Assembly (NCBI RefSeq): GCF_037975245.1 | Contig: NC_092563.1 | Location: 28,171,960 to 28,235,959 of the forward strand | From: Apostichopus japonicus | Lineage: Eukaryota; Echinodermata; Holothuroidea; Aspidochirotida; Stichopodidae | DNA: 64,000 nt | Direction: 5' to 3' | Part shown: piece by piece, positions 13,453 to 42,700 of the stretch | Layout of the letters: the number at the start of each line of letters is the position of its first letter | Position numbering within the stretch: the first letter of the stretch is position 1 | Notes under the pieces: generated by a model | Seen by the model: the letters and a program-made list of their open reading frames with translations, nothing else | Told to the model about the DNA's origin: nothing | Databases searched by the model: none | Made by a program: the position numbers and the translations under genes

Positions 13453-15698
13453 GCTCGAAACACAAGGTTATGTTAACAAGTACTAATGAACTGTAAAAAT
13501 CCCCCGACTGAACGTTTCCTCCCTACTGACGATGAAGGTGGGGTCAAAGACCCACCCCTTCACTCCATCCCCTTCACCGTCTCCCTTACGCATAGCAATG
13601 GCATGAAAGTATTACCCTGGCTGTCAGTGCATCCCATTGGATACACAACGTAACGAAATACGATGCAGTTCAGCCTACGTAAACACATACTATGGGCTTA
13701 TACACATACATGCAAAAGCAGTAATAATACTGCAACGTAGCAAACTTTCCCACAATGCGATTATAGGTTATAATTAAATACATCAAAATGAATAGAAGTG
13801 AAGTCAAGGTCTTTTCAGGTATTCAGGTGTGCAACCCTATGTAGACAATATGTTTTATTTTTCTTTCTAGTAGTAACACATTGACATCCCTAAGTTTAAA
13901 GCAAACAGACAAACCGATAGGAAGTGATTGCCCGTTGAACGATTAAGATGGGTTTTTCTGGGAATCATGGGTTTCTACAAGGTGAATAAAGATGCAGAGA
14001 GGAGATCGGACGCATAAAAAGTGTTCATATTCAAGTCGATCATCTATGGTCACCTTTATATCGATGGAGTGGAACGTCCTGGTCCTATATAAGTAACATA
14101 AAGAATGGACGAACGGGATGACGTCACTCAGCCAACGATAAACAATGAAGGACGACCTTGTGACGTCATATAACCCGTAATGTAGTCATATCAGGGAGCA
14201 TCCGTGAAGTGTATGTTAACGTACATGTCACATATAGAGATTATACAGGAGATAGTCAAGCCTTCATATCATACGGGACCAGGGGTGTCGATCCGTTACC
14301 AGGTGGGGGGGGGGAACTTAAAATGAATTAAAATACACTTGATGAGACCAAAGCACAAATTGGCAGAATAATGTACCTCCTCCTTGTATTGCACCACCGT
14401 AATGTAAATGATTCAAGGAAGCCGTTTTTTCTTGTATTTATTCCATTCACTTCATCGGAATACGATCAAGCATTAATTTGTGAGCATTAATGTGTACTAG
14501 TAATGTAACTTGATCGACAAGCACGTGTTGTCGGTGGCACGATGTGTATGGCTTTTGAACAGGGAGTTCGAAGACTTTAATTCCAGGCAGATGTTTTAAT
14601 ATTTATTTCATAATTTCATAAAACTATTGAAAGCATTGTATCTATTCATTCCTCCATTCATCAATGATCAGCAATAACTCGAAGAACAACATCAAACTTT
14701 TTTCTCCCAAATGATAAGCGCTGAGAGGGCCAATGACCCTTCTGCCTCCCCACCCACCCCTAGAATCTACGCCCCTCTGCACCTGAGGACAAACAATTGT
14801 GCTTGGCTGAAAGTTGTGCACGTTTTTCTTTATCAAATCATCAAGGGCGTTATAGGTCGCATTGAAAGCTACCGTGGTCTAACATAGCAAGTGCTTCTCT
14901 GAACGCCCCGCACGAACCGTGGTCCCCCCCCCCCCCATTGCCTCAGTAATGATCCCTTCCTTACAACTGAAAACAACGCTCACGTGACCATCCCTTCGTT
15001 TCTTGACTAAGTTTCCAAATTTTATACTATAAACTGCACACCAAATTTCAAATTGAAGAAAGCCCCTTTAAGGAACCGTCTGCTTATCATGAGGGGTTGC
15101 AAAGACCTACCGGGCGAGTATCTGTAAGTGATAAACCAGACAACCTGTAAGCAATTTTCACATTGCAGCAAATTAGTTTAAAACTAGGCCTGTTGCCTAG
15201 ACTTGATAATCAGAACATGATGGCTCAATATACACGGTTCATTGCCGGGATGAATTATTTGGGGACAGAGAAAATATGGAGGTACCCCTGGAAGAAAAAA
15301 ATACATGGGACAAAGAAAAAATAAGTTCAGTTTTGACAAACGTCTTTGATACAAAGGAGATTCCTACGGTGTATATATCTACAGGTACACGTTGAGCTAA
15401 GCATTGCGGTACATTATTCTGCATCATTCCTATACGTAGCATTGAAAGGTCTACGTGCAACGAGGTACGCATGTAAAGACCACAGCATGGGATAATGGGA
15501 TCCGATATGACTCACGCTTCTATGTAAAACTTTTAACTGCTAAAACCAATATTGGTTTTAACAGCCATCGTCCTTAATTAACGGTATTATATGTATATAG
15601 GAGATCATTGATGCTCACGGCGATAACTACATTAAACGTTATAATTGTATAGACTATACACTATATTATACATCGGCGATAAACTTACATATGAATAC

Positions 15699-15938
15699 CA
15701 GAGGGATCCAGAAATGAAGGAGTGATGCTCTTGGGTGGTTGAAGGCGACTCATGCTGGGGGGGGGGGGGGTCTGGGATTCCCATCCCCTCCCCCTAAAAA
15801 AATACACAAATGATGCACTCTAAGGCAAACCGGTTCTGATATAATTAGATCTAAACGCAAGGCTGTGCTAATAATTTTTGTGTGACCGGTTGGAAAGGGT
15901 GCGCAATCCGACCCACCCCCCCCCCCAGTCCGCGCCTG
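15699..15938. mobile_element. Possible decayed hAT-like element, duplicate of 8418..8659
   Basis: Copied within the 7.28 kb duplication. The evidence and doubts are the same as for the first copy. Confidence 0.35.
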
Positions 15939-17044
15939 ACTATTACAAAGATATCAAAACATATAAAACTACCCTACTCACCCTTCCCCTTCATACCGTC
16001 TCTTGTTTTCTCTTTCTCTCTGTTATGTCGATGGCATGAGTTTGATGCTCATTCATAAATACAACGAAAAATATTTGAACAAGTCTAAACACGACACCCC
16101 GAGTGTTTCTTCCTTAATTTATTTTTATTGATAAAAGGGCAGGGTGATTACGAAATTGCTGGAACATAAAGATTTTTAAAACCTGGATAATACTGTCAGT
16201 GAACCAATGCTTTCATATGGCCTAAGTTTCCGCGACGGCAACGTAAGTTTCTGCGACGGCTACATAAGTATATGGTTCAAACGGCGCGCCATACTTTTAC
16301 TCCACTGTCTGCTAGCACTACGACGTTACAAACTGATACAATGACATTCCGTAGACATGACATTTGAGTTTCGATATCTCACAAACGAAACAATGCACTT
16401 ACTTAATTGCTTGGGGATTTGTTCATTATATATTTTCGATCGTATAAGATGAAGACTGGTGTTTTTCTTCGTTTACTCTCGTAACGATGAATAAATATTT
16501 ACGCAGAGAGTCATTTATTTTCCGCCTCTCTTAGTTGTGCATGAGTCACGTATACGGTAAACCGTGCTTGGAAATATATGTTACATGTTTACCCAACTGT
16601 TTCCCATGTGTTACTATATTGAAACGAGACAAGAGTTGCGCAAATACAAAAAATATTGATTGACTTTCGTAATGTGTAGGAACTAACGACATGATTAACT
16701 ATACAGTGAAGCTTGGTACAACGAAGGAGTCGAATATGGAGAGGCATTAACCTGATTCAAACATCCCCCCTCCCCTCCCCGCCCCTCCTTTCGTACCACC
16801 GCTGTCACCACAATCACAGTGTGACTATAAACACACCTACCCCACAAACAAAGATCAAAAGTGATTTTTTATTTCTCACCAAAATCAATTTACAGTTCAT
16901 GGTACCATGATATGACTGCCATGAACAACGGAGGTTCCTTTGGCATTTGACCCCAAATATGTCAGAAAGTCAAATAATGAATATTCATGCTCCAATATTC
17001 AACAAGTATTTTACTGCCACCCTCTAAGCATTTTCACTCACTTA

Positions 17045-17402
17045 CATAGGCGTAGGAAGCGGGGGGCTGGGGGCTGCAGCCCCCCCAACCAAATATTTTT
17101 TGGAAAATTCGGGCAATATGCTGCGAATTTTTCGGGCACCTACTGAAAGAAAAATAAATTGAAATGTGTTTTATATTATTATTATTATCATTATATGCCT
17201 TCCGACAAAAATGATAACCAATGTGGAGGGTAATGACACGGCAAAGGATTATATGTAATTGGCATGCGATGTAATAACCGATGCATGCCTATATGATATG
17301 CACATTAAGATGTTGAAAAATGTTGGTTATATTTTTCGGGCAAGTCGTTACAGCCCCCCCCCCCCCCAAAAAAAAATCAAATTGGGCTCCTACGCCTATA
17401 TG
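17045..17402 (+). mobile_element. hAT-like MITE, CATAGGCGTAGGAG family (358 bp)
   Basis: The left end is CATAGGCGTAGGAAG and the right end is GGCTCCTACGCCTATATG. Perfect 8-bp target duplications CTCACTTA lie at 17037..17044 and 17403..17410. It contains a single copy of the unit that is expanded sixfold in the 5509 element. It lies just outside the right boundary of the tandem duplication. Confidence 0.88.
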
Positions 17403-17410
17403 CTCACTTA

Positions 17411-20376
17411 TAACATTGAGTAATCTAATTTAACAATCCTCGTTGTCGGGTAAATTGTTGGAGATTTATAAGAGTCAGGAGAGTTCTATAGCATGCTAAC
17501 GAAATGTGAGGCCTAGACTGATGAGTGGAGAGACTTTAAGATACCTGTTTTTAGCCTTACCAATATTCTGATCAATGGTCAGTCGCTAACAACCGACATT
17601 GTTACCCTTTGCTTGCTTGTTTGAGAAGGTTTATATTTGGACTAAAGTCCAAGGTCTAAAGCAACTAAGAATATTTGTAACGTAAACGAACCGTCACGCA
17701 GATGTAGTCTACAGTAAAATGTTTATGTTTGAGTCTATCAACAATAGACCTTTAGTCCCGCAACTTCACTTTTACCTGAGCGCGATTCTGTTAAACATGT
17801 GCTGGTCAGTCATGGTCAATCTTAGAGTAACTACGACCGCTTGATTTATTTTGAGTCATGTAATAGCACAATTAGCTGATTTGAATAACTAACGCGAGAT
17901 ATGCGATGGTTTGAAAAAAAAAATGGTTTTGATAAAATAAGGATATTCTTATCCGCTTTTATTAAAATCTGCCAAACCACAAGCTAGCCTCAATAACTTC
18001 CAACTCAAAATTCGATATTTAGTGTATGTTAATTTTGAGCACAAGTTTTGTCCCACTGGCGTATACTAAGCGTGTGGGTTGAGGAAAGTGTAAAGAATTG
18101 TCAATCACTCTCAAAAATTGGAGAGATAAAATGTCTCTTTGACTTTAAGTTTAACTTATACGTTGAAAGATGTGCAGCATCGCAAACGCCATTTAATAAT
18201 TCAGTTCTGTTCTGAACCTCTTACGTTCGGTTGATATTTTATGTATCTTGATACTGACCTTTAGAATAACAATTAAAACTGATTTACAAATCAATCAGGG
18301 ACACTTTGTCTTACCAGGTGGATGGGGAGGGGGTCACCGACCCCCAGATGTTATGTTATTTTCTGGCTACGCTGCTTGTAGGGGCGGGGGGGGGGTGGGG
18401 GAGGCGAAACGTCCTTCATGCCCGGGGACCCAGATCACCGTCATTCCGCCTCTGATACAAGTAATAACTCACAATGAACCGGAATATATAGCAATGCACA
18501 AGACAGAAAGGCACATACCTCAATTCGATGGGCATCTAGCTATCAACGAGCTATATTTCCTATCTAAATGGTCAGATTAATATTATGTCAATTAACTCCG
18601 ACGCCGGTATACCAAGTAAAATGGTTTCCCATGTATTTCTTCCTGTTCGTAAAGTGTATAGATCAAACTTACATATAGTTCATTCTACCTCATAACCAAT
18701 CTATTATCTCTACACAGCCACACCAGTATGGTTATACCTGCTTGCGCTTCTTACAACAATTACATAACCATATACCACTTCCCTGGTACACCAGCTGAAC
18801 AAATTCACTCTAACATTCTGCAGTGATGCAATGAATGGTTCAATGTTCCTTACGAACCTCTGATATGGGAACTTCCCCTCGTCCATGTTGAGTACATTTA
18901 CCGATAGCAATAACAGATACTTAACACTTGCAAATATAGACGGTTCTAGGATTGTTGTCATATCTTATTCATAACGTATTGTGTTATCATATTCTGTTAT
19001 GATCATATTTGACTGTGTTATCATATTTGATAGTGTTATCTTATTTTTATTGTGTTATCTTATTTAAGTTTCACAACAAACACAAACAAGAACTATAAAA
19101 AAAAAACCTGAAAGAATTATAGGGTACATGACTTCAAACCAAGCAAACAACTCTTCCGTACATGATGGAACTGAAGGCATAGCAGGACCGTGAACAGCGG
19201 AGGGGGGGGGGGGTAAGGGGAATTACAAGCACGAGAATAGCATGGACGTTTTATCCTAACCGTGGAAATATAACTTCTTTATTGTACAAGGGGGACATTT
19301 GCTCTTCATTTCATTACAGTTACTTTACAGGTTGCGATGTTGTTTGTTACAAGATTATCCCTCTGTCCCCACCCTCGACCAACTCCTTCCCCCTCATCCC
19401 TTTGATCAGATATGTATACAGTAGCTATACACAAGTTCTGTCAACTCGCTTTCCATGTACGATTATACCTATTTCAATTGTCCAAACTCCAAACTAGTCA
19501 TTGATTTCTTTGTAAATATCAAGTTCGTAGTGAGGTCATTGTCACGTGACGAATGACGTGGTCAGACAGCAGGAAAATAACCGCAGAGAGTTATTAGGAA
19601 CAGACAGGGCTTTGTACCTTGTAATACTGAATTAGTGTCAAATGAGGTCACGTTAGGTCAGGAAGGTTACAAATTTAAGCCGACTTCATGATACTATCAT
19701 GTTACACTTTTCGATAATTGACATGCTTTTCTCTTTTCTTCTATTCCTGAAGGAGTCCGATAACCCCTCGCTCTCATCCATACGATACCGGTATTGTAAG
19801 TTGAAAACCATAACCAACACTTTGTAGGCCTTAGGCTCAAATTGATTAAGTAAAGTCTGACAGTCAAACCTCCTGCTGATCGAATACATATTTTTGTCTG
19901 AGATCAATTTCTAAAGAAAATTAGGTCAATCAGTATTAATAAGATGTCTTGAATAAAGCTAACATGGAATATATCTCACTAGCTAGAAAAGAAAAGAAAA
20001 GAAAACTTTAATGAAGAAGTCGATGCGAGCGAGGAGAACTGACAGGAATCGAGTATAATACACCTTCACGTTACAGTATATATAGGCGTTTAAATGTCAC
20101 CAGCATTGCCCAAAGATAATAGTCTCACATGAAACGAACTTGGAACGCCCATAATATAATTTTTCTCTCCGACGTGCAGGAGAGGGCAATTGATTTAGCT
20201 AGCCAAGGAGAGTACTAATAGATAACAGATCAGATTTGAAAAATCGGGGGGCCATTATCCTTGCTCAACACTGATTATTAAATGGCAGCAAAGTTTACTT
20301 CATCCCGACGGTTATCAAACAAACTTTGAAAATACCTAATTAGGTGTAGTCAAACTGTATTTCGTATTTAGAAGGA
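17411..20376. other. Intergenic DNA, no gene recognised
   Basis: No coding pattern was found. It contains a short GTGTTATCATATTTGA-type tandem repeat (18975..19068), G-rich tracts near 18380 and 19200, and a GAAAA microsatellite near 19985..20005. Confidence 0.5.
18975..19068 (+). repeat. Imperfect ~25-bp tandem repeat
   Basis: Several consecutive imperfect units of the form GTGTTATCATATTTGA with T-rich spacers. It is AT-rich and has no coding value. Confidence 0.55.
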
Positions 20377-20384
20377 CACGTTAT

Positions 20385-20913
20385 CAAGGGCGGCGGAACC
20401 GGGGGGGCACAGGGGGCACGTGCCCCCCCACTTTTCCTCAGGTTGAAAATGTGCCCTTTTTCTACATAAAAATTGAGGTGTCTCAAGTTAGCAAGAGGCC
20501 AGAAAAACCAGAATGAACACTCGGGAAGGGCCGTTTCCGGCCATCTGAGGGGTTTGTAAAACCAAAAATTTTCTTGTACGTTCCACGCCAACTGATGGTG
20601 GCGCTCCGCTCAGATAGTCGTGCATACAACTTTGCAAATCCTGGCTACGCCCCTGACTTTCAATGAATTTCTGTGGGCCAAACTCAAAGCTATTTCCCAA
20701 TTTGCACATTGGATATTGCAGTGCTAGTATGCATATTTTCCTTGAGGGGGGGGGGGGGGGGCGTTGATGGAGTGATGTGTATACGCAATAAGATAATACA
20801 ATAAGAGTTATAAAGGGTACTAAATATAAGGCTGCATCAGTCCAATCGAATTTCTGCAAAGTGCCCTTTGATGTCGGTGCCCCCCCAGATTAAAAGTGCT
20901 TCCGCCGCCCTTG
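20385..20913. mobile_element. hAT-like MITE (529 bp)
   Basis: The left end CAAGGGCGGCGGAACC and the right end GCTTCCGCCGCCCTTG are inverted repeats. Perfect 8-bp duplications CACGTTAT lie at 20377..20384 and 20914..20921. GGGGGCACAGGGGGCACGTGCCCCCCC sits just inside the left end. The interior GGTGGCGCTCCGCTCAGATAGT segment is shared with the element at 1457..2023 and, inverted, with sequence near 63040. Apparent reading frames (20340..20591 and 20488..20859) are element sequence, not genes. Confidence 0.87.
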
Positions 20914-20921
20914 CACGTTAT

Positions 20922-23822
20922 TGATTACACATTATTGATTACACTTTACCGAAAAAAAAATCCTGGTTATATAGACTTCGAGAAGCCGTTTTGACTCTTT
21001 AAATTCGACCTTTGTGGAAGAAACATTGGTCTTTTTCCAGGTTTTGGTCACTCCCTGGGTTCTCTTATACCAACGGACCACCAACTACTGGACACGAACC
21101 ATTCGTGGGTCGTCGCAATTTAATTTTCAGTGGGTAGCAAAATATTTTCATTGGGTCAGACGTCGGTAATTTATCTACTTTTCGGAATTTCGCCAACGAA
21201 CATCGATTATATATTATTTTTTTTAACATCAAGTCTTCAATCCAAACTAGTTTTCACGCATTCTGAGCATCGGTTCTGCATGAGAAATGGGGATCTGTGG
21301 GTTGTGGCTCCCAGATTATGTATCGTTGGCCTTATTTGCTCAGCGGGGTAAATCAGTTTCGGTTTCAAGGGAAATGGGTGGGTGGCTTGTATCGCAGAAG
21401 GAGAGGTAGAACCCGCGGGACCGCTATCGCGAGCCTGAAGAGGTGGGGCAATATGAGCTGCCCAATAAGAAGATAGACAATACTTTTAAAAAACTTAAAG
21501 GTCGTTTGTTTTGGAGCTTCTGTGCATAGTATACGCAAATATTCATCAGTCTTATTCGTTTTGACGCCTCTGACCGACCACCAACCTTACACCGTCCTCT
21601 TGCTGGCCGGGTGCATTTAAACCGGTAAGGTTTTACATTCATTACCAACCGTGGAACGTTCACACACCTCATACGTGTGCTACCTAACTTACCTTGCATG
21701 TACTTAAAATCATGCTTGATTGGCGTTCATAACAATTTATGTTCACAATATGGTTGTCACTTGTGGTTATTTGTTACCATTTATAGAAACAAGAAAAGTA
21801 CGCTTACCCCGACGGCGGACCAGCACATCAAGACGGCTAAGATGAGGGAGAGCGAAGATTTGATCTCCATGATGATAACGGGTACTTATAATCCACTTCA
21901 CACCCGTCAATGCAGTTAATCCCTGGCACGAAAACACGAAGTCTCGTCTCACATAAGACGCATCATACTCGCGGTACCAAAGGTTTGTAAACACCACCAC
22001 ATTTTACACCCTGTTGGTCCGTTCCTGTACCAATGCTACTATAAAATGTACCAGACAAGGCTAGCGTGATAAGCTTATAAAGTCTTCTGTATAGAGAGTA
22101 CGTCACGTCATTCTCTGCTTTGTGAATCTAACTGTTCAGCATCGCGGGGGAGCGTGACTACTTTTCTACATGGTTGACCGCTCATATCTAATTGACCAAA
22201 ATACGATCCCTTCAAAGTGCCAGATGTAAGTGTTAGTTTTGATAGCTGACATACGCTAGAAGCGGCATTCCGGGTTTCAGGTACTAGCTGAAAAGTGTCG
22301 CAACTGGTGGGTTTTAAAACTAAATATTCCATGCCATACGTTCTTCAAGTATTCGAAATAAAGGTATAGGAGTGATAGAGGGGCTAGGACAGTTAGTGAA
22401 GAGGCAAATTTCGACGGGGTTTTGGCACCATATATTGGATCTGGGGAGTACATCTGAAGAGTAATCGAAAGAAGGAAATTTCGGGGAGGGGGCCTACGGA
22501 CGATGAATTGTATGGAAGGAAGTGGTGTCCGGGAGGAAGAAGGGGACATTTGACCCCAAAGATTGTCCTTATAATTTAAAAAAAAAATACATGTTGGATC
22601 ATGCTAAGACGTATGCATTCTACAAAACATAGTAATTCATAGCCGATGTAAAGGCATAGTTACATTTATAATTTTATTGGTAATTGAGGGGCTTCGAAAA
22701 CCCGTCTTCGCTTACCTCACCACGCCCACTCGTACACACACCCAATATGAATCTATTCCCAAACATTAGCGTATTTGACGCCCACCATAAAAACAATTCT
22801 CACTTGACTGTTCAATATCTGCGGATAGGAATATGTAAGGTTAGGGGTACCTCTCCTAACTTTTTATGTCTTAGATGCAACATTCCCTTTGTGGATTGTA
22901 ACATTCATAATTTTAATCCATTTTGAAGGGGAAAATGCTAGTTATCTCCATTTTCTGTGGTTGATGTTTTTGGTCCAAATAACACCTTTTATGAACCCCC
23001 ACTAAAGGGCCACAAAGTTCACCAGGGGTCACTGCTCTCCCCCTCCCAGTTGGCAAAGGTCAGGTTTTCACGAATGTATAACTAGTTGTGGCTATCTAAG
23101 TCATGTAGCGTTGTAAGAATTCAACATAATATTATTATTGAATCGTTATTATACTCGTTGTCGTTTTCAGTATCTCTGAAAATAATTTATTTGACTTTAC
23201 AAAGTTATATAAATATAGTTGATGACCGAAAACGTGAAAAAGAAACGAACCCGGCAGTGTATTATGTTTAAGAAACAAAACAGAACAATTTTTCTTCATT
23301 ATAAGCTTCAGTGTGTTGTTGTGAGGGCAAGCGATCGACAGTAGCCTTTGACTAAAAAATGATATGCCAACTACAACATTATCTACAACACATCGTACTC
23401 GATGCCTGAATGTCGATTGTATGTAAAATTATATAATTTATTTAAAATTTAATTGAAGTTTTGACATGCGACAGTCTAACAACTGAATATATGTAAGTTA
23501 TGATTTATATCTCCTAACATCATGCATCAATAAATGTATAATGGAAAGTTCATTGTTGCCTCAGTTACAATAAAAATGCAAAATCAAAATCAAATTAAAA
23601 TAAAATACTAATATAATGAGTGAACAGGTCAAATGGTCAGCAGCAGACACGATATACGTTAGCTAGAATAGTCAATATACTGATTTTATTCAAACATCAT
23701 TAATAAATTGCCGATACATTTTAAGCAGATTTTCTAGTATAAAATGCCACTGGAAATTAACCCAAATCAACTAAACAAGCTGCTCTAATCGGTATGCTGC
23801 TTTTGTAGGTTAATTTCTTACC
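20922..23822. other. Intergenic DNA, no gene recognised
   Basis: Short frames only. None shows a known domain, and none links to neighbours through plausible splice sites. Confidence 0.5.
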
Positions 23823-23830
23823 CCATCAGA

Positions 23831-24430
23831 CAGGGGGTAGGAGCCTCCAGGGGGCGTGCCCCCCACTTTTTTCCCAAAATAGCAAATGTGCCCATTTGAT
23901 GAAGAACTGTCTTTTGGATACGCCTTTGTTAATTTTAATATTTTCTTTTACTTATTTATTTTCAGTCTGTACATGCTACTTTTAAAATGGCATCCCATAT
24001 CTATTTGTATCACGGTTAACAATAAACAATCTTAATAAATAAAAAAATTAATGTTGCAGCTCATTCTACTAGCATATTATTCCATACTACACCTGGTCCG
24101 TCAGTTTAAATTCTGGTATGTTGCAACATTTCAAACGTCTCAAGCCCGATGATTTGGATTTAACCAAGTTTTGCTAAAGACATTTGTTCAAGGAATTGAC
24201 ACAGGAGGATTTTTTGGGGAAAGTTCTAAATTATGGATGGACAGAAGTACAGATGCAGGTTGATAGAGTCACGTGCACCATAATAGTATTGATAGCATAC
24301 TAACACATATATATTTAAGTGATATGGCCGGTGTGTACCGGTTTATAGCATAACGAGTGGTGATTGTGGAATGAGAAATTGCCCCTCTGATGTTGTGCCC
24401 CCCAACTTTTGGAAGCTTCCTACCCCTCTG
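23831..24430 (-). mobile_element. hAT-like MITE, CAGGGGGTAGGA family (600 bp)
   Basis: The left end is CAGGGGGTAGGAGCCTCC and the right end is GGAAGCTTCCTACCCCTCTG. Flanking 8-mers CCATCAGA (23823..23830) and CCATCAGG (24431..24438) match at 7 of 8. The reverse complement of its right part matches the left part of 32911..33856, and it preserves the uninterrupted ...CACTTAAATAT... site into which another element inserted in that copy. Confidence 0.82.
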
Positions 24431-24438
24431 CCATCAGG

Positions 24439-26240
24439 TATACGTTGAACAGAAGCTATTTTAAATAGTTTGCTATAGAATTTTATGAACTTGCGAAATT
24501 CTTTCTATTTTCAAAAAAAGAGGCAGTTATTTAGTCTAGATTTGCATACTAGAGGTATCTAGCCTATAGACTGATAAATCGTATGATGTACACTACCTTG
24601 ACAAAAATTCACGCGAGTCACGAACGGTACCGTTAAACTTTTGAAAGTGGAGGCGTAAGTCAACAACGCTCGACTGAGCGTGACCACACCGTTAGAAGAA
24701 CGGCAAAGACGTTCGTCTTTGGTGAACTATTTGATGGTTACTTTCTCCTCACCGCATGTTTATACGCACGCCAGAGAGCTGTCTTTCACGATCGTAGCAG
24801 ACCCTGAACCAACGACGTCGAAAGGGCACTAGGTATTGAGAAATCTTAGTTCCATTAATTGTATATAAACTGCTTTGAGCAGGGAGTTATTCCATACCAA
24901 CTCCCTGCTTTGAGTAGGTAATACACTAGGAAAGCATACGACCTGAGGTACACCTACACTTAATAATGATTAGCTCCATTAAATCTCACGTTATAGTTTG
25001 ATCTTTGAAATATCAACATGATGTAAACCCAGCCGAAGAAGGGGTCTCGCCCAGTTAGGTTTTGTAATTATATGTAAGGCTGTAGTTTTACCTTTACAGA
25101 CCCTTGACTACATAATATTGCTATCAAAGATCACTGCCGATCGGGTGGTCAACGGTCAGTAGAGATTTCGTAGAAATCAGAGGGTGAAGGGGTGATGGTG
25201 GTGGGTTGGGGGGGGTGGAGAGGTTGCAAATATACCACATATATCAAATCTTAACCAACCACTCGATACTGTTCTTACAAATTTAATTATGAGTTACTTG
25301 GAAAAGTGTAATTTGCTAATTAAAAATGTTCAAAGACAGCTTTAATTTAGAACAAAAGCATGTGTGGTTAAATGCATAATTTAGAGGGCCTGCTGTTTCG
25401 ATCCCTTCTTTCTTCAGATTTCTTCAAAGTTCTTGTTATATTCAACTTATTTTTGCAAAAAGGTAAGATCATCCGTGGAAAATTTCCTGATTAAGGTAGG
25501 CCATGGTACTTAACGGAAGGACTAGAGATGGATCAAGAATTTGACAAAGTTGGGGGTGGAGCAATGGAGTCGTTGAAGTGGACTCCCATGTATGCGGTGG
25601 GGGGGGGGGGTCTGGGTTATATCCTCATACAGAAAAATATAAAAACTTTAGATGTCAAATGGTACATTCTTATGCATATGTAGACTATAAGTTAGATCTA
25701 TTATTTCGTCTACATGTAAGATTGTGTTAATAAATACTCTGGAAAGTTGTGTAAGATTGAAAAGGTGGGTGTACCCTGGTAGGAGTGGTCTAATTTTTCC
25801 CCCAAGTGTAAAAAATGGTCTGACTGAACCACTACCCCGTCCACAGTCCCCCCTCTCACAATGATGAAAGGAGGTCAGGGGTATGGCCATCCCCCTATCC
25901 CCCCCCTCTGCCTTTTCACACACTACTATATAGTCTCTGTTTATAAAGTGTGGTAGATCTAGATTATGTAGTGAGATAGGAATTGTAATGTAATCGAAGT
26001 AATACCAAAATTCCTTAGGTGTTCACCATCTCTTGTGGCACTTATACAACCAGGAAGCTGCCACATAGATGGCAACTCCCTGATACAACACATTTACTAG
26101 TTTGTGCTGATATCTCTGTAAGGCTGATAAAGGCTTGCTTAAAAATAACAGAAACAGTTGTTTTAATAGTCAATGTTCCCTTACAATTTAAAACAAAGAA
26201 AACACTAAAAAAATTGAGAAAATGTATCTTTTCATTTTCA
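24439..26240. other. Intergenic DNA, no gene recognised
   Basis: No coding signal. A short inverted repeat around GCAGGGAGTT...AACTCCCTGC (24879..24908) is the only structure noted, apart from G-rich tracts near 25210 and 25600. Confidence 0.45.
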
Positions 26241-26246
26241 TTTATT
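26241..26246 (-). promoter_or_regulatory. Candidate polyadenylation signal for NDUFS6
   Basis: TTTATT on the plus strand reads AATAAA on the NDUFS6 strand, about 255 bp past the stop codon. No transcript evidence is available. Confidence 0.35.
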
Positions 26247-26498
26247 TTAGTTGCAATAATTTTGAGGCTCAAGTATCAGTCAAGTTCTGCTATCATTAAC
26301 TGGTGTTGTATCATATATAACAGTCTAAGCTATGTATGACAATGAATCAATCCTCTTCTACCCTCTCCCCCCCCCCCCCACCGACCCTCCCCCCTCCCCT
26401 CTGTGGCTGCTGGTTTAAACCAATACTCTCTGTATTAAACAAGTTCTCAGTTTCTTTTACTCTTTCTGTCTTCCTGAAATAAGTTACAAGTCCATTCT

Positions 26499-26564
26499 TC
26501 AGTGGTGATGCTTCTGTACAAACCTCAGACCACAATAGCCGCAGGGTTGAGGACCAGATGCATC
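26499..26564 (-). CDS. NDUFS6: NDUFS6 coding exon 4 (terminal)
   Basis: Encodes residues 102-122 with CGYCGLRF and a terminal His triplet, then TGA at 26499..26501. The acceptor is TGTTTAACTCAG. C109 and C112 complete the zinc site. Confidence 0.95.
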   Translation of the reverse strand, partial: DASGPQPCGYCGLRFVQKHHH

Positions 26565-29500
26565 CTGAGTTAAACAGAAAGAAAATGACAAATAGAGTTT
26601 TGTGACCAAAAGTGTCAGGAAACACATAGAACCACTGGCCACTAGCATACACAGGCTGTTTGTGTGAGAGAAAACTTCTACGGACAGTATAGACAATAGA
26701 TTATTTAAAGGCATGGAAGGCTCGCCCCAAACCGCGTGCTGCGCTCTGAAAAAGTTAACTTCCGTTGCTTGCAAGTTAAGTTTTGCTGCTTGCGCTACAA
26801 AATGCAGACAGTAATGAAACGTGATACCTTGTTATCTTTAGCTGGACCTGAGATGTCCATCGCTGTATTGTTTGTTTACTGTGCTGTGGGTATTGACCGC
26901 AGCTGTGTGTACTGACTGTACACTAGTGTCTAATTACCGAAGATAGCAAGCTGTGTGCCTATTTTCTGGGATCGATGGTGGTGTCTAACACTTCTGTTAC
27001 ACCTCATTCGAAACTAGGTCAGATTACCGGCATTAGACGTTTCTTTTTGCGCGAGTCTTCACATCCTTTAAGGCAGATCATACTTGAGAGGTAGTATTTT
27101 ACTTGACAGCATCACCAATATATGGTTTTGCTCATTCCTTTGGTTGCAAATCTAACTGAAGCAACTTCTTTAGGACAGGCTATAAAAAATATTACAATGC
27201 CGAATGCCTAGGAATTAGCAAAATAAATTATAAGGCCGGGAATACTGGGTACATAAAGTTTGGTCAGATTGTACAATTTATTCACTACTAATGATATTAA
27301 AATAAATAATAATCCCAAACATTCCTTTCAATTCAGTAATTTCCACAGAATATTTGGGCCAAGTTATTACTTTGAGGATGGCCGAAATTTCACCTTGGTA
27401 ACCGATCACTGGGCTAGGATGACAACATCTGGGCCTGATTGTGACTGTTTCATTCAAAGTCCTATGTTCCCTTTTCCCTATCAATAACATCACTGACATA
27501 ATTGATACCAATTGTTTGTCATACCTAATTAATGACACTTGTAATAGTACTTCATTTATGACACAATAACAGATTACTCACCAAATTAATGTAGACTTTT
27601 GGATGTCCTAATTCACCTCCACCTCCATCGCACCAAACATTTCTTCCATCTACTTCTGTTGGTGGTTCTTCATGGACTAAATCTATGGCAAATTTGTCAT
27701 TTACCTGAAATGTGAACAAAATTCCATTGTCAATTTGCCACAACACCAAGGATGAAAGGACAAAACAAGGAAGAAAAAGATGATACTTCATTCAGAGCAA
27801 AGTTGAAAGGGTTGCCCCAAGTCTCTGTTATGTGCTGATGGTGATAATGAGGCACACTGGTAGAGGGGGGAGGGGCATATTGTGTGATAGGATGGGACTC
27901 CCCATAGTACGGGGTAGAGGGTACAGAATAAACATCTTTGCCCTGGGGGTTGATTAAAAAGTTAGGCTATGTCTGACCCTTTAAGTTATTAAGGATCAAT
28001 CCAAAAATAAAGGAATAAGAATTTGCAGTTGAATATCTGTTGATATATTCTCTCCTTCTCTCAAATTAATGTAAAGTAATCACAAAGTCAAAATATTTTT
28101 AATGAAACCATATGTGCCTGCCACTTAAAACAAAATCATTGTGAGGCCTTCCGATTTGAGTGATAATTTTGATGGCACGAAACTTGCCAAAATACAGCAG
28201 GCTGCTATGATGGGAAGATATTTATAATCTGGTGATTGGTTGAAATAGGTTCACCCTGAAAGTAATTACTACTGTAAGTAGCATATTGTTACAAAGAGTC
28301 AATCACAAGTGAAAGTTAGCTACGCCTACACTCTTGCTTGTTTAGATCGAATGTCTGCATCTGAAAATTTTGTTGTAATGGAAGGATTCAATGCTTTGTT
28401 CTTTATAATCGAGCATGAGAAAACACTGTAGCAAAACATCTTCCAGAGATGCATTAAAATCTGGGAACTATCTTCAGGTGGTCTAAGGGACTTAAAGGAG
28501 CGTACAGAGTAAATTAAATATATTCTACCTATTACGTGACATTAGCTCAGAGACATAGGTTATTTGGAGTTGTCTGACAATAAAGGTGCTTTATTTCCTC
28601 TGCAAAAAAACTCCTCCTAACTGTTTACTTACTTCTTTTTCTCTATCAACATAACGTAGGGCTCTGTAATCACCTTTGTCGAAAACCTGAGTAGAAAACA
28701 TAGATAAAGAAATCAAATTTAGGTTTCATTAAAATGATAAATGGAATACAAGAAATGTAAGTCAACAATGCTTGATAATATCAAGACATGGTGAATTTTG
28801 GGAGCAATAACGATGCACGGACAATGTCATCACATTGGACTGGTATATCATTTGCTTGCAGAGACAATCAGGGGGCAGTAACAAGCATATTGAATAAATC
28901 AAAAGTATTTGTAAATTACTTGTACTCTGATCCTAAACTGCTGTACTCTGACACTGGTATTTGAATCCTAACATCCAGTAGGCCTTGACCTATCCATATG
29001 GCACTTGGATCCAGTACTAAGAAGTAGCATGGTTGGTCCAGTTATGACACACTGAAGACTTTTAACTGGCATTTTTATGAATGATACTGGAAAATCGTTT
29101 TCATTGTTTACTTTTGTTACACATACAAACAACAGTCTAGCAGATGAAATTTAATACAAAATAAGTTACTTTGAAATCTATAGGTTGTACACAGCTTTGC
29201 AAATTGCCATCATTGTTGGTCTTCAATTTTATGAAAAACACATTGGGAAACTTGCTAGTAGTATAAGTAAGTTTGGCTTACTTTCTGTTGCTATGGTAAA
29301 ATCATGAAATTTCCAAAATGCACCATTATTATAAGTTAATACTCCTACGATATGTTATAATATTAGGTCTTCGTCTTCGATACGGTGACACATCCGCAAA
29401 AAGGGACAATATCTCACCACACACACGTCAAGAGAATAACTAGTTAAATCTGACCCAAGTACTGATATAAGAGACAGGATTCACAGAACCACTGGAACTA

Positions 29501-30318
29501 CTAATGAGGTCTGAAGGCAGACTATTCCAATCCCTAATTGTATTTGGAAAAAAACTATACTTATAGCAATTGGTACTGGCATACAGTTGGCAGAAATGCA
29601 TATCGTGCATGTTCCGACTCCTACGCAGAGGCTTTCTTAGGCAGTCAATAGGGATCTGAGCCTGACCATAGATGCCCTTAGCAAATAAGATGATTCTACT
29701 TTGTCTGCGCCTCTCTGCCAAGGGCACCAGGTTTAGGTCCCGTAACTGAGATGAGACAGAGCCAGGCTCTCTTGAATAATCTGAAGCGATGAAACGGGCT
29801 GCACGCCTCTGAATGTTTTCGAGGTTGTGCTGCAAGAAAGCTTGGTGGGGATCCCAGACAGAACTGGCATATTCCAATACTGGCAGGAGGAGACCTTTAT
29901 ATGCAGCCAATTGGTCCCTTGATTACTCTTGGTACTCACATAAAAGTACCCAACTAAGCTACACGACACGTTTAGAAGAGCTTTTACCCGGCTACCCAGT
30001 GTCATCCTCCTTGTCCTTAATCTTGAGCGCCCTGGAATGTAGCCTAGCCCACAATGTGTACAGTATGCGATGTAACGCCATGGCCAGTAGTCTGTTGTAA
30101 TGTTACTAAAGAATGCAACATAGGCTATGCATAGGTCTAGGCTAGGCATACAGTTTGCCTATTCTGATTATCGTAGCCTAGCTGACACTTACCTGTCCTG
30201 TGTGAGTAACTTTTTCTGTCGGCAACTGTAACCTTGATGAGGAACATAGCGATCGACAAGTAAATGCTTTTGTTAAATTGCACCTCAGCAGCACTGAAGT
30301 CGAACGACAAAGCGCCAT
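26499..30318 (-). CDS. NDUFS6: NADH dehydrogenase iron-sulfur protein 6, mitochondrial (complex I zinc-binding subunit), 4 coding exons
   Basis: NDUFS6 is a small matrix-side accessory subunit of respiratory complex I that binds zinc and is needed for late assembly. Coding exons, in transcript order, are 30193..30318, 28633..28686, 27582..27704 and 26499..26564. All junctions are GT-AG in phase 0 and give 122 residues; human is about 124. Residues 1-30 are rich in Arg, Ser and Leu with no acidic residues, as expected of a mitochondrial presequence. The conserved core has KVTHTGQ (36-42), [16 protein letters not shown], then CDGGGG and [10 protein letters not shown], and the end is CGYCGLRF...HHH. 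Zinc ligands by family alignment are C85, H94, C109 and C112. The gene lies head to head with MRPL36. Introns hold a reverse-transcriptase fossil (intron 1) and a TTAA-type element (intron 3). There are no frame breaks. Confidence 0.96.
26705..27071. mobile_element. TTAA-flanked MITE in NDUFS6 intron 3 (367 bp)
   Basis: TTAA lies at both ends (26705..26708 and 27068..27071). The terminal sequences TTAAAGGCATGGAAGGCTCGC and, from the other end, TTAAAGGATGTGAAGACTCGC form an inverted repeat. A second, inverted copy lies at 54957..55313 in PEPD intron 3. TTAA target use is typical of piggyBac-like elements. No transposase is present. Confidence 0.65.
27582..27704 (-). CDS. NDUFS6: NDUFS6 coding exon 3
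   Basis: Encodes residues 61-101 with the first two zinc ligands (C85, H94) in CDGGGG and LGHPKVY. The acceptor is CACATTTCAG and the donor is GTGAGT (27576..27581). Confidence 0.95.
28633..28686 (-). CDS. NDUFS6: NDUFS6 coding exon 2
   Basis: Encodes residues 43-60, including the DYRALRY segment. The acceptor is TTTTCTACTCAG and the donor is GTAAGT at 28627..28632. Phase 0 at both ends, 54 bp. Confidence 0.93.
29440..29910 (-). pseudogene. Non-LTR retrotransposon reverse-transcriptase C-terminal fragment
   Basis: The 156-residue minus-strand frame has the classic end of non-LTR reverse transcriptases. It opens with [15 protein letters not shown], continues with [13 protein letters not shown], a [13 protein letters not shown] block and F.KG, and ends with [13 protein letters not shown]. 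Upstream sequence to about 30140 looks like the preceding part of the same domain but is broken by stops and frameshifts. There is no catalytic YxDD and no endonuclease. It is a 5'-truncated, dead insertion inside NDUFS6 intron 1, in the same orientation as the gene. The clade could be CR1, L2 or Jockey-like and cannot be decided by eye. Confidence 0.82.
30193..30318 (-). CDS. NDUFS6: NDUFS6 coding exon 1
   Basis: Begins at ATG 30316..30318 and ends CAG before the donor GTAAGT (30187..30192). It encodes residues 1-42: the basic presequence and the conserved VTHTGQ. Phase 0. Confidence 0.93.
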
Positions 30319-31226
30319 TCTAATAAATTTCTTGAAAATGCAAGAATTCAGAACACTGTTATTATCTACAAATTGCGTGTCTATTTATTCATCAATAGAA
30401 AATGCTAAATATAATTTGGGCTAGGAACAAGACGCCGTGAACGCTGAAGGCAGTTTTCTTTCACCAGTCAGTGGGCAAGCGCAACTGACCAAACTATTAT
30501 TTATTAGTAGTTTCTATCAGATAGACCAAATTGTGAGTAACATTCATATCGAAAGTTATCTATTCTCCGAAATCAGTTCGAAAATTCATGTTCTGAACCA
30601 ACTTTAAGTTCAATTATCACATGTATGATGTACACCATCACTAGTACAAGTACACTGTTTAAGCACTGTATGAAAGAACTTAGGCTAAGCTTAGCATAGG
30701 CCTAGATAAATGGGGTCGATGCTATACAGTAGTACTTTTAGCTGAGATATGTCAAAGACGATCCTCATAAATTATTTTGCTTATCATGTGGTTAATATTC
30801 GGTGTCATGTTTGTCGAGCTTGCCAGCCTGGGCTTATGGAAGTAAGGGAGTTGGGAATTCCTCCATAGGCTAGCAATGTTGTTCGTTTTCAAAACTGGTA
30901 TAGTAAGTTGTGAGGACCAGTTGCGCGAAAGAGGATACCCAATGATAAAATCACTATTATGTATGTTTATGACTCTGAGCTAGGTATATGAGATACTTTG
31001 TTGTGGTTAGTGATGAAACTAACTCACAAACTTAAGCATCATTTGAAGCAAAAAAATCAGAAAAGATTGAACAAACTGTGCCAATGCAAGTTGACCATAT
31101 TTATCATTGTAGTGTTAGGCCCACCATTTATGCTAAGCAAATTAATATTCTCTTTCCTTTATTTCCATTTTCAGTTAAATCAACGAAAAGAAGAAATTAG
31201 TTACAGCACCAAACAGCTCCAGTAAA
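30319..31226. promoter_or_regulatory. Shared intergenic region between NDUFS6 and MRPL36 (candidate bidirectional promoter)
   Basis: The start codons of the two divergent mitochondrial genes are 908 bp apart. A strong acceptor, a pyrimidine tract ending TTTCAG at 31171..31174, lies 52 bp before the MRPL36 ATG. This suggests that MRPL36 has a noncoding first exon, with a possible donor GTAAGT at 30903..30908. That would put the two transcription starts within about 600 bp of each other. No TATA box was identified. Promoter activity is inference. Confidence 0.5.
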
Positions 31227-31592
31227 ATGGCATCTGCACTTTCAAGTGTGAGATGGATAATCTCTGCAACAATGCCTTGTAGATTTCAAGCCTTGAGGCA
31301 CATTCATATCAGAAAGTCTTTACCACTTGTCTTTGGTCTCTCTGAAAGATCTAAAAGAAATCTTTTGACAACTCCATCTTCAAAAATTGGAAACTTACAA
31401 CTTCAAAGAAATTTGAAGGTTAAATCCGCCATAAAGAGACGTTGCAAGCACTGTCGTATTGAGATGAAGTTAGGACTGTGGCATGTTATTTGTGAAGAAA
31501 GCCCTAGACATAACCAACGTCAGAGGGGTAAATTGCCACCACCAGAACTCCAATTCTTTCCGTACTTCTTCCGATCCAAGATTGCTAAATAG
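31227..31592 (+). CDS. MRPL36: Mitochondrial large ribosomal subunit protein bL36m
   Basis: bL36 is the smallest zinc-ribbon protein of the large ribosomal subunit; this is the mitochondrial form. The 121-residue frame starts at AAAATGG. It has an N-terminal extension of about 64 residues that is rich in Arg, Ser and Leu with few acidic residues, as expected for a mitochondrial targeting sequence. Then comes the bL36 core VKSAIKRRCKHC, ending VICEESPRHNQRQ. Zinc ligands by family pattern are C73, C76, C89 and H95. A short tail follows (GKLPPPELQF...). Human MRPL36 is about 103 residues. The coding part is a single exon, but an acceptor at 31171..31174 implies a noncoding 5' exon. The gene is divergent from NDUFS6 and convergent with PEPD. 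Confidence 0.95.
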   Translation: MASALSSVRWIISATMPCRFQALRHIHIRKSLPLVFGLSERSKRNLLTTPSSKIGNLQLQRNLKVKSAIKRRCKHCRIEMKLGLWHVICEESPRHNQRQRGKLPPPELQFFPYFFRSKIAK

Positions 31593-32902
31593 CTATGGAA
31601 ACTATGACAACATTCATGTGAAACAGAACTTGATAGGGCAATAGTTTTTGAAAAAGTGCAACCTTGTGATTAGCTTTACTTCCATCTCTTTTGTCCACTT
31701 TTCAAAGACTACTTGGAGGAAGGCCTAAGGAAGTGTGCATCTCTCAATTCCTTGAAAAACCAGGATGCTATACCAAGCCCGAGAGTAACTTAATCAGAAT
31801 CACACAGGATATATTCAAATCTGGATATCATATGTGATTGCAAAGATATGAAGTTTGCTGCATATTTGTAGTGGACAACTGTAGTGACAAGAGTGATTTA
31901 TGGCAGATGGCAGAAAAACTGAAAAATTTGTGCATTGTTATTATTTCATAAGTTACATGTAAATCAATCGTCCACAAAAGGATTGAATATCTCTGCCTTC
32001 TTTGTAATTTGTGTGTCACTGACTCATTCAGTTACAAAGAATGCATAACAAGCAGTATTTTACATTGATTGTGGTTTATCTTTTGTTATATACCCAAAGT
32101 ATACTTATGTCACCATATATGTGTTTGATTTAACTTAGCTAAGTTTCATTTCAAATGCAGGAAAAGTACAAAATAATGTAAAATGTCTAGTTTCTCTCCT
32201 ATTCTATCTTACCTTTGAGTATTATGTGGTTAGCTGAACTTGCCATTATTTACAACATAAGGCAAGACAGCTTCTTCAAAGAAAATGGACTAACTAGTGG
32301 TTAGGTCTGAGCTACAGAGGGAGCATGTATGCCTGTGCTATAATTCTGCAATGGAATGCTCTCATTCCAAAGTTACTAATCAACATTTGCTACCTTTTAG
32401 CTCTATCATTGCTGATACAACAATAACTTACTTGATTAATATCATAATGGCAACTTTTGTTATAGGAAACCCATTTATAAAAGCAGAAATACTTGAATAA
32501 ATTTGAGCAGTTTTTCTCCAAAAGGCTTGAGTGGCTTTGTTCACTGACTTTGCCAGAGTCAAACAGATTAATGGAAAAAGTGAAGTCATACTGTACGTAC
32601 AATTCTGGTAATGGGGCAGCATTCCAGTTTGTAAATTTGTCCAATAAATGGATTTTAAGGAAAATTATCTCCATGGTTTCTGTTTCTTCTCAAGTCCTAT
32701 CTACAGAGAATATATATTTTCTTGACATTTCATTTGGCTGATTTGAAGATCAGTCCAGTGTTTCTCAAATCCCTGAGTTGTCAAGTTATCAACCATTCAT
32801 CACAGGTGAACCTCAACATTGCTAAACTTAAAACTCTGAAGTGATGCAAGTCTCCCTAAACTTGCAACAAACCAACTTTCTGAAAGGCATATATTGTATA
32901 CC
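31593..32902. other. MRPL36 3' region and intergenic DNA
   Basis: No further gene was recognised. The first AATAAA on the plus strand noticed past the MRPL36 stop is near 32497, so either the 3' UTR is long or a variant signal is used. Confidence 0.4.
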
Positions 32903-32910
32903 CACTATGG

Positions 32911-33856
32911 CAGGGGAGTAGGAAGCTTCCAAAAAGTTGGGGGGGGGGGGGGCACAACATCAGAGGGGCACTTTCTCATCCCACAACCACCACTGGTTAT
33001 GCTATAAACCGATACACCCCGGCCATATCACTTAAAGCAGCATTTTGTGTCCTTTTCTATATTTCTCAACCTCACTGACTCCACTATGCCATAACGACAT
33101 ACATAACTAGCTTATCTATTTAAATCTTACTTCAAATGGTGGCATAAAAGTCGAAAAAAAATTGCCAATTCTACTTTGTTTTTCTCCAAGATATTTTCCG
33201 TTGGGATCCCAATTAACCTTGCCCATAATATGAATATTTAAACACTACGAACGTTATTGACCAATACGTAATCCAACACCAAGCTTGATTTGTGTACAGT
33301 CTATATGGCAGTTGTACCAGGGAGTTCCATAACAACTCACTTGTTGTGCCAACGCAAAGTCTTGAATCTATTTTTAGCAATGGCTCATAACTAAACCTGC
33401 ATCTTTGATTGGTTGAATTCAAACTAGTGGGTTTGGGGTACTGTATGCGATTAATTTTAAATAGTGGAATTTTTTCGTGGATACTTTTCTCATTCTCTGC
33501 AAATATCCTTAATTACTCGCCAATTAACGATGTTGGCAGGGAAAAACTTGGCTGATATCTTAGTTTGCTGTTTTGTGATTGATATATGTGAAAAACTCGA
33601 TGGACATGTCAAAAAAATAGAAAACGGCGACCAAAAGCAAAGTGCTGCTTTAAAGATATATGATGTGTTAGTATGCTATCAATACTATTATGATGCACAA
33701 GAATAATTAAATAAAATATTTAAATTAACAAAGCCTTAAGATATCCAAAAGACAGTTCTTCATCAAAAGGGCACATTTTATTTGCCAGTAGGGCACATTT
33801 TCTATTTTGGTAAAAAGTGGGGGGCAAGCCCCCCCCCCCCGGCCCCCACCCCCTTG
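32911..33856 (+). mobile_element. hAT-like MITE with a second element inserted in it (946 bp)
   Basis: The left end is CAGGGGAGTAGGAAGCTTCC and the right end is ...CCCACCCCCTTG. Perfect 8-bp duplications CACTATGG lie at 32903..32910 and 33857..33864. Outside the nested insertion 33032..33653 its left part matches the reverse complement of 23831..24430. Removing the insertion leaves about 325 bp, so it is also internally deleted relative to that copy. Confidence 0.82.
33032..33653 (-). mobile_element. TTAA-type MITE nested in a hAT-like MITE (622 bp)
   Basis: The ends are TTAAAGCAGCATTTTG and CAAAGTGCTGCTTTAA. The related copy 23831..24430 shows the empty site ...ATCACTTAAATAT... where this copy has TTAA on both sides of the insertion. 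That directly shows TTAA target duplication, as for piggyBac-like elements. A homologous element lies at 43058..43695 in inverted orientation. No transposase is encoded. Confidence 0.85.
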
Positions 33857-39700: not shown

Positions 39701-42700
39701 TTCAATGAAGTAGCACCCTGGCTCGATGGTGAGGACCATATCAGCTTCCAAAACCCTGGCGGTACGGAGGTATTTTAGGCCAGGGAGTGTGCTCCGTTCA
39801 TTTCCCCCCTACGAATAGATAAGGACCAAGCATTAGATGAAAATACTAAAATAGATGGGTTGAAAAGTGACTCTTGTAAGAGAAATGAAATTGTACAGTT
39901 TGATGTAGCCCTATCAATGAGCCTACCAGCCCCCCCTCCCCCCCCAAAAAAAAACATAACTTGATACTAGTTTGACAGATCAGTGTGCATCAGTCATGCA
40001 AACTTTTATGTGAAAGAAATACATATTTGTATTAAACATTCTTATGTGAGGAAGCAGGGTACAAAAATAACACACACACATTATTCATACACAATATAAC
40101 AACCAGAATGCAAAAATGCATTGTGGTTTCGATGATGTAACATGAGCAGTTTTCGTCATGAATTTGATGTGATGTGATGTATAGTGAGGGTGTACATGTT
40201 TACAAGGGTTTCACGATTTGACCTATGATGACCCCAAATGACCTTTGACCTCCACCAAAAACAATAGGCTTCTTGTACTCAATGTGGTACTTCTACACAC
40301 CAAATATGAATTGGTTTGACCTTCCCTTCTTGAGATATCATGTTTACAAGCTGGGCGTCACAAACGCACTCACATACACGCACACACACACATACACATA
40401 TACGCCATCATGAATGCAAAGGTTACGATAATCATCGAAACAAAAACCTTTCCAAAACCACCAAAATTGATGCATGAATTACCAAACAAGAGAAGAAACT
40501 GATTTAATATTTGTTCTCCATCAAGAAGAAACTATACCAGATGAAAGACAAATGTTGCAGTCATTAACATTATTTGCCAGATACAAAATATTCCATGAGT
40601 CTTTGACAGCGATGTTCTCTCATGCTATACAAGAAGTTTCTCTGGTTTTTATATACTGTACAAAAAAATACTAGATTAAAGAGATAAAAGTTTATCTTTC
40701 TATTCATAGCCTCCAACACATCTAAATATCAAGCGAATGTATAGGGTAATGATGAATTTAGTTATAAAGTTCATTGGAACATGACCCCAAACATATCAGA
40801 AGGACCGAAGCCAGTCACCGAGGATCAAATGGGTAGTCCTTTTTTCTTTCCAGTCACAGCATTTTCACTCACTGGGAAGAAATTAATTAGGTCATCTCAC
40901 CTTCCTTGATAACTTCGACTAATTTGGACGGGGCAAGACGGATGACCTATAACCAGATTTCTGGTGAGTTACTTCGTTTTATGGTTAAGTCGAGCCACTA
41001 CGAGTGATTCATCTGAAACGAGTCTGTGACTTCAGCCACGGTATTACATCTCCATCCAGTAAATAAAATTCACTGACTTCTCGAGTCACTTAAGTAAGAC
41101 ATAGCAATCTATTGAATCTCACCTCGGGGTACCCCCCAACATCATGTACATCTATACCCATTAAGTGTCCCAGGCCATGAGGGAAGAACAGGGCACCGAC
41201 ATTGACTTTCTGCATCTCGCTGATATCACCCTTCAACAGACCGTGTGATGTCAACTCCTCAAGGATGACTTTCTCTGCCAACAGATGCATGTCTGTCCAG
41301 AGGACTCCTGAAAAAGAGAGAAACGAATGTCAAATCAAATCCAGCTTCATGTATCAACATGCAGCTGGGTCATTCCGCCTCAAATCAACCAATTTTCTGA
41401 AAAGTTCCCAGGTGACCCCCTCAGAATTAGATGAAATTTCATCAGAATGATTGAGTATGTCCCAAATGAACACATACAAAAAATTAAAATCATACTCCAT
41501 GTCGTTTTCGAGATATGGCCCGTTGAAATTTGGTCGTTGTGGCCAGTTTGCTCGTTTGCGATTCGCAAAAAGTGACTTTTGTGATATTTTCCGAATTTGA
41601 AAGCTCATAATTCAGTCTTTGTACCAGGTAGAGAGTTCAAATTTGGTATTCTATCTTACTTCTTGCCAAAATTTATGAATCTGCACTCAATTTAACTGTA
41701 TCTCCTTTATTTTTCTGGTTATGATCACCCAAAGTAGGCACTTTATTCTGTCAAAAATGTTTTTTGTGATTTTTAAGGTCACCCTGTATCCACATGAGAG
41801 GTCACATGAATCGTATATTCCTTGGGTATTATCTATGGTTGCATGTCTATACCCATAAGCAATTATAAGCCCACCAATGCATTAATTAAGAAATGGCATG
41901 GGGCCAAAGTTGGCTCCAGCCAGAAAAAGGTCAAAAAGACCCCGCCCTTCTTGACCCCGATTGACCCCGCGATCAATTGAAACATTGATTGAAATTTACA
42001 CCAGTTAAATATATATATTATATCTACTTGTACATCAAATTTCAGCTTTGGCACTCAACTCCTTCATGGTATGGTGGCAATTTGAATATTAGACGTTTTT
42101 CGCACATTTTTTAACAACCGCGTACACTAAGTTAATATCATACAGTGTATTTCAAGTTTGAAGCTTGTGTAATGTATTTTTTGCAGTTAGAAAAAAGATT
42201 GTTTTTATTATTGTTTTTAGAAATGGGTTGATTATGCATGTGTTCCACTGCAATACATGATCACTTCAGTTAACCCTCCAATAGGCTGGTCCCTCATACC
42301 TGTATAGTGCCTCAAAATCTCCCATAACACACGACACAATTTGGAGCCTTATATACAGTAGTATACAGTACTGTTGTAGAGTTTTTGTAGAGAAACATGG
42401 ATTAAACCACACAATACAATTTAAATCTGCCAGTACTTAAAAGAATAGTCCAGGTCAAAATTTCTTTGTGATGTTTAAAAGAGGAACATAATCCAAGCAT
42501 TCTGATGAAATTTGCATTCAATTCCTATGTACCTTTTTTGAGATATTGACAGTTGAAGTTGCCACCTTTTGGTACTAAAAGTGAACTTGGAGCAAACGGA
42601 TTTGACGTCATTGTTGCACTATGATAACTAAAGCTATTGTTTTCTTTAAAATTTATGTCTAATTTTATACTCCACAATTGGATGCATCCATAATGTTAAT

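Follow-up and report, generated by a model that had tools for sequence, protein, structure and literature searches.

The subject of this analysis is a divergent pair of nuclear genes for mitochondrial proteins, NDUFS6 and MRPL36, in the sea cucumber Apostichopus japonicus. The pair lies in a stretch of 64,000 nucleotides (RefSeq assembly GCF_037975245.1, contig NC_092563.1, positions 28,171,960 to 28,235,959 of the forward strand), which is called the window and whose numbering is used below unless a contig is named. A preliminary description, drawn from the letters of the sequence, had proposed that the two genes diverge from start codons 908 bp apart, that the arrangement matches that of vertebrates, and that their staying together points to a shared promoter co-ordinating the supply of respiratory-chain and mitoribosome components. 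Taken as a whole, this interpretation is partly supported. Exons, strands and matches to PDB and Pfam confirm the two diverging genes and their spacing, the locus (26499–31592) had been delimited correctly to the base, and the host, suspected to be an invertebrate, is an echinoderm.

Gene models of NDUFS6 and MRPL36

NDUFS6 is encoded on the minus strand by four coding exons, separated by three introns that are all GT-AG and in phase 0. Exon 1 (30193–30318) carries the start codon at 30318 and is followed by the donor GTAAGT; exon 2 (28633–28686) is preceded by TCAG and again followed by GTAAGT. The zf-CHCC domain, called over the whole spliced protein, begins in exon 3 (27582–27704) and ends in exon 4 (26499–26564), which also contains the stop codon. 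The spliced product of 122 amino acids matches NDUFS6 chains of complex I in PDB (best E 6.7e-37) and zf-CHCC in Pfam (E 6.3e-19).

The complete coding sequence of MRPL36 (bL36m) occupies 31227–31592 on the plus strand as one open coding exon of 121 amino acids plus stop. Its identity is given by both databases: mitochondrial L36 chains are the best PDB matches (E 9.4e-7), and residues 64–99 match Ribosomal_L36 in Pfam (E 1.7e-10). A tail of 22 residues (31524–31589) extends past the end of the domain match at residue 99 of 121, and the best PDB chain, 3j7y_4, is aligned up to residue 102 of 103.

The two genes are thus adjacent, on opposite strands and with their 5' ends facing, which is the geometry of divergently paired genes, defined as adjacent, diverging genes whose transcription starts lie within 1 kb of each other (PMC2670823, PMC12672016). 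The interval between the start codons (30319–31226) is the candidate bidirectional promoter and, since it measures 908 bp, two starts lying inside it would be close enough, although a remote noncoding exon might place one of them farther off. It was checked for repeats, motifs and open reading frames. The only tandem repeat in 26000–33500 is a two-copy 21-bp array of no consequence. The whole genome of 671,581,487 bases (671.6 Mb) in 35 contigs was searched, the family searches scoring the best candidates only: the L36 family and zf-CHCC each occur in one place (E ≤ 0.001), and the sole match of the 908-bp interval is the interval itself.

Within intron 1 of NDUFS6, the minus strand contains an open frame of 160 amino acids (29443–29922) without a Pfam match. 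It resembles the end of the reverse-transcriptase gene of a non-LTR retrotransposon.

Comparison with the mammalian arrangement

The human genes had been described as adjacent and divergent, and this appears to be so from the annotation of two human CpGs, cg05926253 and cg07875360, which lie in a CpG island and are labelled NDUFS6;MRPL36 and TSS200;TSS1500 (PMC6537208). Taken in their usual sense, the labels place these CpGs upstream of both human starts, TSS200 referring to NDUFS6 and TSS1500 to MRPL36, which would mean that the two human genes diverge across one CpG island with a short gap. In mouse the neighbours are Irx4, Ndufs6, Mrpl36 and Lpcat1 (PMC5591014), and tables for pig (PMC9375371) and horse (PMC11350783; a 0.92-Mb interval) group IRX4, NDUFS6, MRPL36, LPCAT1, SLC6A3 and CLPTM1L.

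The sea cucumber therefore shares with the mammalian locus (human 5p15.33) the identical two neighbour genes, each present in a single place, in equal relative orientation as far as the human labels (PMC6537208) define it. There are also differences. The human site is an annotated CpG island, whereas the sea cucumber interval has 35% GC and a modest CpG enrichment. The outer neighbours in mammals are IRX4 and LPCAT1, whereas in A. japonicus the next Pfam-recognised gene past MRPL36 is a prolidase, tail to tail with it.

Presumed relatives of other genes from human 5p15.33 were located on the same chromosome-size contig of 31.4 Mb (C3), on which the pair lies at 28.20 Mb. These are a Homeobox_KN family member at 12.69 Mb (one of eight matches in the genome), a CLPTM1 family member at 4.59 Mb, with another member of this family on contig C8, and an acyltransferase family member at 2.03 Mb (one of six family matches, the one on C3 having been chosen post hoc). 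By their sequence features they are taken to be Irx-type, CLPTM1L-like, CLPTM1-like (the copy on C8) and LPCAT1/2-like, respectively. The exons of the CLPTM1L-like gene gave no match in PDB, so that its paralogue label, like the Irx and LPCAT1/2 ones, is presumptive. A search for TERT as a further 5p15.33 marker found no match in this genome or in control genomes and is uninformative. If these presumed labels hold, the relatives of human 5p15.33 genes share C3 with the pair but lie 15–26 Mb away from it. Among the neighbours compared, only NDUFS6 and MRPL36 have kept their place. The earlier suggestion that the pair was retained over a long divergence hence looks real, the other mammalian neighbours being scattered along the same chromosome.

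Chance expectation and control pairs

Adjacency of the two genes in this genome and in vertebrates by mere chance had been named as a finding that would speak against common retention. A random-order estimate makes chance unlikely. With 864–1,446 human divergent pairs (numbers drawn from PMC3815023) and a genome of 19,828 genes in the A. japonicus assembly (PMC10344927), 0.02–0.04 chance matches are expected, assuming fully random gene order and one-to-one relatives for every human pair. If the two genes are merely confined to a single chromosome, which pro rata would hold about 930 genes, they would come to lie head to head by chance with a probability of about 5e-4. Because both expectations are low, common ancestry of the adjacency is the best reading.

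Three other vertebrate head-to-head pairs were checked, and one of the three is kept, the sample being too small for a rate. In the kept case, a Cpn10 exon on the minus strand (C18:19391055–19391201) faces a Cpn60/TCP1-family gene on the plus strand the matched exons being 3.9 kb apart; the family label covers both Cpn60 and its TCP1 relatives. SURF1 and SURF2, presumably head-to-head in vertebrates, both map to contig C22 (4.91 and 5.48 Mb) but are separated by 567 kb and share one strand, the SURF1 match containing a TAA. For PAICS, a search of the 9.9 kb leading into its first matched exon found no PPAT domain on the minus strand; an MFS-type transporter is located upstream of PAICS in place of PPAT. 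Retention of divergent pairs in A. japonicus is thus not automatic.

The intergenic region

The ratio of observed to expected CpG (o/e) was calculated in 450-bp windows over 26000–33000. It peaks at 0.95 at 30200, and the top windows start at 30150–30250. The putative promoter core, 30151–30600, contains 15 CpGs (o/e 0.94) and lies beside exon 1 of NDUFS6. Around the MRPL36 start codon, the stretch 30951–31400 is depleted, with 1 CpG (o/e 0.08) and with TpG and CpA at o/e 1.48 and 1.34. In animals with gene-body methylation, such a profile would point to a promoter core by NDUFS6, whereas the start codon of MRPL36 would sit in a methylated stretch that is transcribed and not in a promoter.

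On the plus strand a strong 3' splice site is present at 31173–31174, with pyrimidines at 17 of the 19 preceding bases; an exon using it would begin at 31175. It is the only acceptor in 30340–31225 at the threshold used. The best donors upstream are at 30842 (score 3.54) and 30903 (2.31), on a matrix in which a perfect site scores 8.8; NDUFS6 itself has donors of just 4.07 (exon 2) and 4.42 (exon 3). This suggests that MRPL36 has an intron in its 5' untranslated region (5'UTR) that ends before 31175. A 5'UTR intron is present in human MRPL36.

Known promoter motifs were sought on both strands of 29901–31400 as exact consensus matches only. NRF1, ETS/GABPA, full YY1, Sp1 and TATA are absent, and there were no E-box, ERR, CREB, DRE, ZNF143 or Ohler1 patterns. 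In lacking exact NRF1 and ETS sites, the region differs from a nuclear respiratory promoter driven by these factors. Short matches to CCAAT, Inr-like sequences and one TCT-like sequence were not counted as evidence, nor was the six-base YY1 core, which occurs twice, once at the start codon of NDUFS6 and once at 30081.

Flanking genes and other features

The flanks were scanned against Pfam in six frames over 16501–26402 and 31601–61102, three proteins from 26499–31592 being scanned separately. No match was obtained in 16501–26402, and prolidase-type domains alone were found in 31601–61102. These comprise an AMP_N domain (57029–57169) and two M24 pieces (46244–46399 and 41123–41311), all on the minus strand. 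Together they extend over 41123–57169, are identified as prolidase (PEPD) by PDB match and are convergent with MRPL36.

At the other end of the window lies a tandem duplication (2574–8928 and 9860–16207; spacing 7279–7286 bases). Its copies are 99–100% identical over seven sampled 300-bp stretches, so that it is either recent or an assembly artefact. The segment 49223–50445 is repetitive, of low complexity and minisatellite-like. Elsewhere in the assembly, contig C29 (31,219 bp) contains cox1 pieces at 14745–16086 and 30842–31219, a full cox1 being present on the 16,099-bp mitochondrial contig C35; the pieces on C29 stem either from a copy in the nucleus or from a mitochondrial contig that was assembled redundantly. 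The cox1 frame on C35 is open with mitochondrial codes 5, 9 and 13; it has 11 AAA codons, some of them at positions that are usually asparagine in cox1 (as in FSTNHKDIG), which fits the echinoderm code, a reading of AAA shared by flatworms.

Origin and regulation of the pair

From the gene models, the comparison with mammals and the composition of the interval, it is probable that NDUFS6 and MRPL36 form an ancestral head-to-head pair inherited from the common ancestor of echinoderms and vertebrates, most likely with a bidirectional promoter. Four elements of this explanation are inferred: that the adjacency is of common descent, where the promoter lies, that MRPL36 has a 5'UTR intron, and why selection would keep the pair. 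According to the proposed mechanism, the CpG-rich open stretch by NDUFS6 exon 1 (about 30151–30600) would load polymerase in both directions. The NDUFS6 transcript would begin a little upstream of 30318 and the MRPL36 transcript further to the right, with a noncoding first exon that would be spliced to 31175. Splitting NDUFS6 from MRPL36 would then damage at least one promoter, so that rearrangements between the two genes would be lost as their surroundings were reshuffled. A stronger version would have the pair as an indivisible regulatory unit that selection has preserved from the deuterostome ancestor or an earlier one. A single core promoter would determine jointly how much of a complex I subunit and of a mitoribosome protein is supplied, and this would be the cause of the pair's survival amid reshuffling. 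This version is possible but rather doubtful.

Several observations weigh against a selected, shared promoter. The CpG o/e of the putative core is reached by 60 of 941 450-bp windows in 16500–64000, and a second, lower rise (0.81) occurs at 26650–26700 beside NDUFS6 exon 4. The 908-bp interval as a whole has an o/e of 0.56, which is equalled by about half of all 908-bp windows. The exact consensus sites for NRF1, ETS/GABPA, full YY1, Sp1 and TATA are missing, as described above, and the upstream donors available to a 5'UTR intron are only moderate. In one survey, short divergent spacing is enriched in mammals, less so in birds and frogs, and not in fishes or non-vertebrate animals (PMC2871058), and in human the two members of a pair frequently have dissimilar functions (PMC3815023). 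Neither of the latter two results favours a general rule of co-ordination.

Alternatively, the ancestral pair may have been kept without selection for shared regulation, simply as a compact, unbroken arrangement with two separate promoters within 908 bp. The action of NDUFS6 and MRPL36 in different complexes, the lack of a classic motif common to both and the modest CpG enrichment are in keeping with such an origin, as are the frequent functional unrelatedness of human paired genes (PMC3815023) and the spacing survey, in which non-vertebrate animals show no enrichment of short divergent distances (PMC2871058). On the other side, the known neighbours are scattered and, in this genome, adjacency was not found for two of the three further divergent pairs of vertebrates, which indicates that a neutral pair could have split. 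Moreover, the start codon of MRPL36 has no CpG-rich stretch of its own. On balance we regard neutral retention as unlikely.

Another possibility is that the genes were joined twice, once among vertebrates and once on the line leading to the sea cucumber. Such re-joining would be easier than a genome-wide calculation implies, given that the presumed relatives of other human 5p15.33 genes reside on the same chromosome. Even so, the expectations given above, for all human divergent pairs together and for this pair within its chromosome, render independent re-formation very improbable. An artefact, either a misassembly or an MRPL36 that is a processed copy, could be suspected from its single coding exon and from the near-identical 7.28-kb tandem repeat in the same window but is hardly credible, as each family has a single place, NDUFS6 has three introns, both frames are open, and about 10 kb separate the pair from the repeat within the 31.4-Mb contig.

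Relation to known divergent pairs

Divergent pairs that are conserved form an established class (PMC2871058, PMC3815023, PMC12672016, PMC5560861). In a survey of 64 species, a functional relation was commoner among conserved divergent metazoan pairs than among those of poor conservation (PMC2871058), and 66 human divergent pairs are reported as conserved in fly, 50 in worm and 18 in yeast (PMC12672016). The ancestral pair proposed here differs from these in its host: the surveys, in their available text, centre on vertebrates and insects, with no echinoderm noted. The closest parallel is HSPD1/HSPE1 (Hsp60/Hsp10), a conserved mitochondrial head-to-head pair listed in Table 2 of PMC2871058. It resembles the present case further in that Cpn10 faces a Cpn60/TCP1-family gene in A. 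japonicus. The products of HSPD1 and HSPE1 act jointly as one chaperonin; the NDUFS6 and MRPL36 proteins are parts of different complexes. A CpG-rich common promoter is usual for mammalian divergent pairs and is not strictly required.

No discussion of NDUFS6-MRPL36 as a shared promoter was found in the literature searched, which did not extend to supplementary tables that may list the pair. In the main texts of PMC2871058 and PMC2670823 no term starts with MRPL or NDUF, and neither NDUFS6 nor MRPL is mentioned in PMC12672016. In one paper that has both gene names alongside the word 'bidirectional', this word refers to another locus. NDUFS6-MRPL36 is a good example of a known arrangement, the deeply conserved divergent pair, and not a new kind.

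That the arrangement of the two genes co-ordinates the supply of complex I and of the mitoribosome is a hypothesis. The interval between them could serve as a compact, testable promoter with which to ask whether genes of the respiratory chain and the mitoribosome are tied at the level of transcription. Some of the chromosome's gene content seems to have persisted while its order was lost, and the pair is still less than 1 kb apart. If the adjacency dates to the deuterostome ancestor or earlier, it would provide a clean natural test of why some pairs resist rearrangement.

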